Shown here: positions 18,059 through 18,766 of the stretch, in pieces
Position numbering within the stretch: the stretch's first letter is position 1
Layout of the letters: each line of letters opens with the position of its first letter
Origin: Candidatus Doudnabacteria bacterium
Lineage (GTDB): Bacteria; Patescibacteriota; Doudnabacteria; UBA920
Direction of reading: 5' to 3'
Length of the DNA: 44,745 nucleotides
NCBI GenBank assembly: GCA_023245895.1
Contig: JAHFJJ010000010.1
Location: 1-44,745, forward strand
Position numbers and translations under genes: made by a program
Notes under the pieces: generated by a model
What the model was told of the DNA's origin: nothing
Seen by the model: only the letters and a program-made list of their open reading frames with translations
Database searches by the model: none

Positions 18059-18086
18059 GCCGGCGCACTTTTGTAAAAAAGCCGGC
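18059..18086 (+). ncRNA. Post-ORF hairpin A, copy 1
   Basis: GCCGGC GCACTTTTGTAAAAAA GCCGGC. Confidence 0.7.
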
Positions 18087-18097
18087 AAAATTCTTTT

Positions 18098-18160
18098 GCG
18101 GTTCAGGCAGTTGGGGGCAACGCGCCTCCGGCAGATTTTCTGCCCTGCTTGATGGATCGC
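18098..18160 (+). ncRNA. Three-way-junction RNA B, copy 1 (63 nt)
   Basis: P1 GCGGTTC+AGGCAG / CTGCTT(GAT)GGATCGC; P2 GGGGG CAACGCG CCTCC; P3 GGCAG ATTTT CTGCC. Confidence 0.75.
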
Positions 18161-18180
18161 GAAAACGATTTTCACAACAA

Positions 18181-18208
18181 CCCCGCCCGAAGCGGGGGAA
18201 GAAGGAGG
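18181..18208 (+). promoter_or_regulatory. Hairpin plus Shine-Dalgarno module, copy 2
   Basis: CCCCGC CCGAA GCGGGG then AAGGAGG. Confidence 0.7.
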
Positions 18209-18213
18209 TACGT

Positions 18214-18447
18214 ATGCCAGTTGATGACTGGGAGAAAGCTCAGTGGTATCTGAAACATGGATACACTGGGAATGCTAGGGATGTCGTTAGGCAGGGGGTC
18301 AGAAGGCGGAACGACCCGATGTCGGAAGGAGTGGCCAGGTCAATCGTGGCCGATGCCGACAGGATCGACCGCCAAGAAGAGAGGAGGAGACCAAGCGAAA
18401 ACTTGTTCTACTGTCCTTCCTGTGACTCATTCGGCTGTAGGTGTTAG
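18214..18447 (+). CDS. Small protein (77 aa) with Cys-rich tail CPSCDSFGCRC
   Basis: Strong SD 5 nt upstream; charged body and four C-terminal Cys. Confidence 0.75.
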   Translation: MPVDDWEKAQWYLKHGYTGNARDVVRQGVRRRNDPMSEGVARSIVADADRIDRQEERRRPSENLFYCPSCDSFGCRC

Positions 18448-18470
18448 TTAGGGGAAACTCAAAAAAGTGA

Positions 18471-18498
18471 GCCGGCGCACTTTTGTAAAAAAGCCGGC
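18471..18498 (+). ncRNA. Post-ORF hairpin A, copy 2
   Basis: GCCGGC GCACTTTTGTAAAAAA GCCGGC, identical to copy 1. Confidence 0.7.
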
Positions 18499-18508
18499 AG
18501 ATTTCTTT

Positions 18509-18571
18509 GCGATTCAGGCAGTTGGAGGTAGCGCGCCTCCGGCAGATTTTCTGCCCTGCTTGATGAATCGC
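18509..18571 (+). ncRNA. Three-way-junction RNA B, copy 2 (63 nt)
   Basis: P1 GCGATTC+AGGCAG / CTGCTT(GAT)GAATCGC; P2 GGAGG TAGCGCG CCTCC; P3 GGCAG ATTTT CTGCC; all stem differences from copy 1 keep pairing. Confidence 0.78.
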
Positions 18572-18602
18572 GAAAATCCGTTTCTAAGTTAGGAGAGAGA
18601 AA

Positions 18603-18743
18603 ATGGACATTGGAGGGTTTGACAGGCCTACAAAAACGGACGCTGAGCGTGCTCGGGAACGGGCACATCAAAAAAGGAGGAGAAAGAGACGGGCGGCCGA
18701 GAAGGCTGCCAAATCTGAAACGGGGGAGGAAGGAGAAAAGTGA
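18603..18743 (+). CDS. Small highly charged protein (46 aa) MDIGGFDRPTKTDAERARERAHQKRRRKRRAAEKAAKSETGEEGEK
   Basis: ATG after TAGGAGAGAG; ends just before hairpin A copy 3. Confidence 0.68.
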   Translation: MDIGGFDRPTKTDAERARERAHQKRRRKRRAAEKAAKSETGEEGEK

Positions 18744-18766
18744 GCCGACACACTAAAAAAGTCGGC
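18744..18766 (+). ncRNA. Post-ORF hairpin A, copy 3
   Basis: GCCGAC ACACTAAAAAA GTCGGC; compensatory G-C to A-U change relative to copies 1 and 2. Confidence 0.68.

Follow-up and report, generated by a model that had tools for sequence, protein, structure and literature searches.

What could three hairpins of nearly the same sequence, each placed just after one of three successive tiny open reading frames, be doing in a bacterial operon? The question is raised by a locus of a Candidatus Doudnabacteria bacterium, located in a stretch of 44,745 nt (JAHFJJ010000010.1; hereafter, the window) that corresponds to contig 40 of the 1.14-Mb genome searched in this study. An initial annotation had proposed that these hairpins are signals for RNA processing, mRNA stability or translation coupling rather than terminators. 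Our analysis confirmed the sequence and the coordinates of the three hairpins (H1, H2 and H3; Table 1), as well as the AAAAAA that closes each loop and the TGA triplet (18741-18743) that abuts the H3 stem and is the stop codon of ORF3. It also bore out the compensatory pair claimed for the third copy, since H3 carries A-U instead of G-C on both arms, in Watson-Crick register. Among the three functions offered, processing or stability is the likeliest. By analogy with known operons, H1-H3 may be intercistronic or 3'-UTR stem-loops that define or protect the 3' ends of one plus-strand mRNA, a reading that we place just short of an even chance.

Table 1. Features of the tiny-ORF locus and its flanks, in window coordinates.
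Feature	Position	Strand	Remarks
Palindrome 1	16676..16711		overlaps the putative -35 element of the PaaX-like gene
PaaX_M (Cas2-like domain) protein	16739..17410	+	223 aa; PF20803, 1.1e-12
Palindrome 2	17446..17481		downstream of the PaaX-like gene
Sigma-70-like promoter	17534..17562	+	TTGACT-17-TATAGT; consensus match only
Leader peptide 1, attenuator 1	17572..17628	+	MNNKQQSIQSLVVVVSLT
Terminator of attenuator 1	17659..17684	+	strong; competing antiterminator
Leader peptide 2, attenuator 2	17704..17760	+	MLNNLLKISEVVVVVSSP; no evident Shine-Dalgarno
Terminator of attenuator 2	17790..17821	+	competing antiterminator
Long stem structure S1	17840..17926	+	upstream of ORF1; z -8.0
Small hairpin	17926..17942	+	just 5' of the ORF1 Shine-Dalgarno (AAGGAGG, 17946-17952)
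ORF1	17957..18043	+	28 aa; Cys- and Arg-rich, strongly basic, orphan
Hairpin H1	18059..18086	+	GCCGGC, 16-nt loop, GCCGGC; arms 18059-18064/18081-18086; starts 15 nt past ORF1 stop
Three-way-junction RNA A	18095..18163	+	between H1 and ORF2; z -4.4, consensus fold
Small hairpin, counterpart at ORF2	18181..18197	+	5' of the ORF2 Shine-Dalgarno (AAGGAGG, 18202-18208)
ORF2	18214..18447	+	77 aa; orphan, three predicted helices (single-sequence pLDDT 76.5)
Hairpin H2	18471..18498	+	same sequence as H1; arms 18471-18476/18493-18498; starts 23 nt past ORF2 stop
Three-way-junction RNA B	18506..18574	+	duplicate of A, between H2 and ORF3; z -4.8, consensus fold
ORF3	18603..18743	+	46 aa; Arg/Lys-rich, strongly basic, orphan
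Hairpin H3	18744..18766	+	GCCGAC, 11-nt loop, GTCGGC; arms 18744-18749/18761-18766; 0 nt past ORF3 stop
Intrinsic terminator of unit	18773..18798	+	6 nt past H3, then seven T
Palindrome 3	18849..18884		beyond the tiny-ORF unit; shares 97% identity with palindrome 2

A search of the whole genome with the pattern AGYCGRCN{4,20}AAAAAAGYCGGC returned three matches on the forward strand, all within 708 bp, none on the reverse strand and none for the reversed-pattern control. Hence, the three occurrences are not due to chance. Each hairpin consists of a 6-bp stem, with folding energies of -12.6, -12.6 and -11.3 kcal/mol and z scores of -2.0, -2.3 and -3.9 for H1, H2 and H3, respectively. In the local context, the pair probability of all three stems is 0.94-1.0. 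When a wider context is folded (18200-18805), that of H3 is only about 0.23, as long-range partners pair with its 5' arm. The loop of H3 is about five bases shorter than those of H1 and H2, and the upstream sequence AAAAGTGAGCCG.C.CACT, common to the three, indicates that they are homologous. Comparison with the Rfam 15 covariance models yielded nothing credible in 17400-18950, and only two tRNAs reached the gathering score in the window. Thus, assignment of the hairpins or the junctions to a known structured RNA family was rejected.

H1 and H2 lie within a block of about 112 nt that is present twice (18052-18165 and 18464-18576; 86-93% identical) and comprises a hairpin and a three-way junction, the latter with a folding energy of -38 kcal/mol. 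The identity of H1 and H2 therefore follows from the duplication, and no function can be read from it alone. In this sense, the three copies are not independent and H3 is the sole informative second version. The compensation seen in H3 is by itself modest evidence, as an equal Watson-Crick compensation arose by chance in 4.6% of random two-substitution trials. The differences between the two H1/H2 modules fall in 4 of 68 paired columns and in 13 of 55 unpaired ones (Fisher p = 0.007), and H1 and H2 themselves show no changes, though the linkers have changed. Moreover, on the plus strand pairing survives each of the four stem changes as G-U, and on the minus strand it would survive none of them; four random stem substitutions preserved every pair in 2.4% of the trials, or in 12% when only transitions were allowed. 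These data are moderate evidence that an RNA structure of the plus strand is being maintained. Because G-U wobble is specific to the plus-strand RNA, they also argue against a role at the DNA level.

The proposal that the hairpins are RNA elements and not terminators held up as well. None of the three has a U tract of its own and none was called by the terminator scan, whose strong call at the end of the unit is the terminator at 18773-18798; an intrinsic (Rho-independent) terminator was thus rejected for H1-H3. An RNA-level role is also backed by the compensation in H3 and by the wobble-preserving, plus-strand changes of the junctions. These same changes indicate that the structure is kept as RNA on the transcribed strand, and stable hairpins between or after cistrons, devoid of a U tract, have the arrangement of intercistronic protective or processing elements. 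Further support for a processing or stability function comes from the three copies, which are confined to the operon and to its transcribed strand, and from the local stability of their stems. This function is weakened by the 6-bp stem and the large loop, which make H weaker than typical exonuclease barriers, and by the possibility that H3 does not form in its wider context and is opened when ORF3 is translated to its stop codon.

According to this model, a single plus-strand mRNA would carry the three tiny genes, each laid out as a structured 5' leader, a Shine-Dalgarno sequence, a tiny ORF and an H hairpin, the latter acting as the end mark of the cistron. Endonucleolytic cleavage would occur in the A/U-rich linkers beside the hairpins, after which 3'-5' exonucleases would be stopped at H, and the next RNA piece would begin with the three-way junction as its structured 5' end. 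In the last gene, H3 would stand before the real terminator. There are precedents in E. coli: for 26 of 34 stabilised upstream genes of operons, the end lies just past a stable hairpin that no uridine tract follows (PMC5927463). The malE-malF and puf hairpins, as well as those of the operon survey (PMC5927463), share with our locus a stable post-gene hairpin, the lack of a U tract and the continuation of the same transcript into the next gene, which is presumed in our case. Unlike these cases, the locus described here combines three homologous copies in a short operon with a duplicated three-way junction and tiny orphan genes. Similarly, papBA-type processed sites (PMC5927463) have a structured RNA 5' of the downstream gene, as junctions A and B do here, where cleavage is a prediction. 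REP/BIME palindromes are also repeated intergenic inverted repeats, but H1-H3 amount to only three copies in the genome, on one strand of one operon, and a REP/BIME or other widespread repeat was rejected. Integron attC sites were dropped too, as no clear core sites could be recognized by eye in the flanks.

The duplication invites another explanation, namely that the hairpins do nothing by themselves: an intergenic H plus junction would have been duplicated between new tiny genes, H3 would represent an older copy, and what matters would be the larger structures only. In favour of this explanation are the identity of H1 and H2 inside an 86-93% identical block, the orphan nature of the locus and the frequency, given above, at which the compensation in H3 is expected by chance. 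Nevertheless, H1 and H2 remained unchanged while the linkers changed, the H3 pair is compensated, and the stem changes of the module all preserve pairing. We consider this explanation rather unlikely. A different possibility is suggested by phage N/boxB antitermination, in which an Arg-rich peptide binds a boxB-like hairpin upstream of terminators. In a comparable manner, H1-H3 might be protein-binding RNA sites serving feedback or antitermination, perhaps through the Arg-rich products of ORF1 and ORF3. Sequence recognition is suggested by the dispersal of three near-identical hairpins whose loop letters are conserved (CACU...AAAAAA), both proteins are strongly basic, and there are terminators inside the unit. 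The likeness to the phage system is one of resemblance only, though: the tiny proteins match no family, the leader terminators lie 5' of the hairpins, an order opposite to that expected of nut sites, and the loops are large and of unequal length (16, 16 and 11 nt). Altogether, such a protein-binding role appears improbable to us.

Less credible is the idea that expression is graded along the operon by H1-H3 acting as pause sites or as terminators of weak or partial effect. The stems are certainly GC-rich and an A/T-rich stretch follows H1 and H2 (AAAATTCTTTT and AGATTTCTTT), but it has no immediate T run; a U tract directly past the stem is absent from all three hairpins, and the terminator scan called none of them. 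Finally, translation coupling or reinitiation at the stop codons, as contemplated in the initial annotation, would account for the location of every hairpin less than 25 nt from a stop codon and for the contact between H3 and the stop codon of ORF3. We disfavour this function and regard it as very improbable, since stop-to-stem gaps of 15, 23 and 0 nt are a poor fit to a signal positioned by the ribosome. In addition, ribosomes that finish ORF3 would melt H3, and past H1 and H2 a large structured junction and a distance of more than 100 nt separate the hairpin from the next start codon.

The unit in which these putative processing or stability hairpins reside runs from the promoter through leader 1, its terminator, leader 2, its terminator, S1, a small hairpin and a Shine-Dalgarno sequence to ORF1. 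From there, the order is H1, junction A, small hairpin, Shine-Dalgarno sequence, ORF2, H2, junction B, ORF3, H3 and terminator. The Shine-Dalgarno sequences of ORF1 and ORF2 are both perfect, and a clear one is absent from most longer ORFs of the window. The GC content of the tiny ORFs (54-55%) is like that of the large ORFs at 30139, 31041, 38481 and 40375, which bear a Shine-Dalgarno sequence; this fits well-translated genes without being proof of it. No protein family matched the products of ORF1 and ORF3, and a Foldseek search of ORF2 against the PDB returned only non-significant helical-repeat (TPR-like) matches (E at least 1.2). Of note, the CGCCUCC sequence in junction A is complementary to the GGAGG of the ORF2 Shine-Dalgarno, and a possible alternative fold could hide the ORF2 start site.

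Upstream of the tiny ORFs, the region 17534-17830 behaves in silico as two tandem ribosome-mediated attenuators of the textbook kind. Each leader peptide comprises 18 aa, with four or five consecutive valine codons, and an RNA starting from the predicted promoter would begin only a few bases 5' of the leader 1 ORF. In constrained folding of the nascent RNA, holding the ribosome at the first Val codon lets antiterminators of -17.8 and -20.6 kcal/mol form, which use the 5' arm of the respective terminator. Once the ribosome has reached the leader stop codon, no antiterminator forms and the terminator does, in both attenuators. Codon runs, terminators and competing antiterminators are shared with the ilv, his and phe leader attenuators. 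In contrast to these, there are no valine-related genes downstream of the leaders, where only orphan tiny ORFs are found up to the terminator, instead of valine biosynthesis genes.

A DNA search of 98 relatives revealed no homolog of the module, and the few matches corresponded to terminator 1 only. A covariance-model search, the check suggested in the initial annotation, detected no homolog in 49 genomes of the order; among 380 genomes of the phylum, the only match (24.9 bits, in G353) involved the hairpin alone and is consistent with chance. Similarly, a pattern search of GTDB and viral contigs gave no convincing homolog. The single GTDB match, in a Dehalococcoidia MAG (L105), was dismissed as fortuitous: it falls within a nitroreductase-like ORF, on the opposite strand, and its surroundings contain neither an array of tiny ORFs nor a matching junction. 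Phage and plasmid collections likewise gave no homolog of the module. For ORF2, relatives yielded no homolog, and plasmids, phages and sampled phylum genomes gave weak or no matches; the best one from the phylum (G379) was discarded, as the region resembles by eye a long glycosidase-like gene rather than a tiny-ORF unit. In IMG/VR, the ORF2 protein matched 15 residues, including KHGYTGNA, of a sequence (L094, IMGVR_UViG_3300028599_000005) without the H/junction RNA, a match that we retain as a lead. Positions 4400-6030 of this sequence contain an array of small ORFs with repeated hairpin-like linkers and complementary flanking sequences, and one ORF of the array has KHGYTGNA in common with ORF2.

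The convergent guaA and guaB genes are only about 47-151 nt apart in six relatives (G002 read directly), whereas about 2.5 kb separate them in the window. Compared with these six relatives, the tiny-ORF unit and the PaaX-like gene together look like a lineage-specific insertion. The gap measures 0.6-1.1 kb in three further genomes (G004, G005 and G012). In the window, palindromes 1 and 2 border the PaaX_M gene and palindrome 3 borders the tiny-ORF unit. In most of 20 other loci (L072-L091), the proteins of which are about 38-50% identical, the PaaX_M gene also lies between two palindromes that match each other; the palindrome sequence agrees within each locus and differs between genomes. These palindromes may serve as paired operators for autoregulation, or they may be the termini of a small mobile element. 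Our literature search, partial in coverage, found no description of a palindrome-flanked PaaX_M gene. In one of these loci (L083, G026:C6), a third palindrome bounds a cargo ORF that encodes about 260 aa with no recognised family. In addition, a solitary fourth copy of the palindrome of our locus (G000:C30:24028-24059; L037, about 4029) lies between convergent genes, just past a terminator-like hairpin.

A more speculative picture, which we think unlikely to hold as a whole, would join these elements: an operon of basic tiny RNA-binding proteins, gated by starvation through the tandem valine attenuators and carried as cargo by a palindrome-bounded PaaX/Cas2-like element, in which the duplicated hairpin-plus-junction linker either divides the mRNA into single-gene pieces or serves as a binding site for the peptides of the operon itself. 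Intercistronic hairpins are already known, and the more unusual part is the operon that surrounds them, with its tandem valine leaders, orphan tiny ORFs and palindrome-bounded PaaX/Cas2-like gene. By bringing together three related hairpins, an RNA-level signature and a second structured RNA, this single locus offers a compact test case of how bacteria with very small genomes partition a polycistronic message. On the other side of the unit, the IMP dehydrogenase of the window (19140-20219) has 359 aa, and most relatives of the same genus have a form of about 500 aa, made of the same two segments with an insert between them, which suggests that the inserted domain was lost in the window version.
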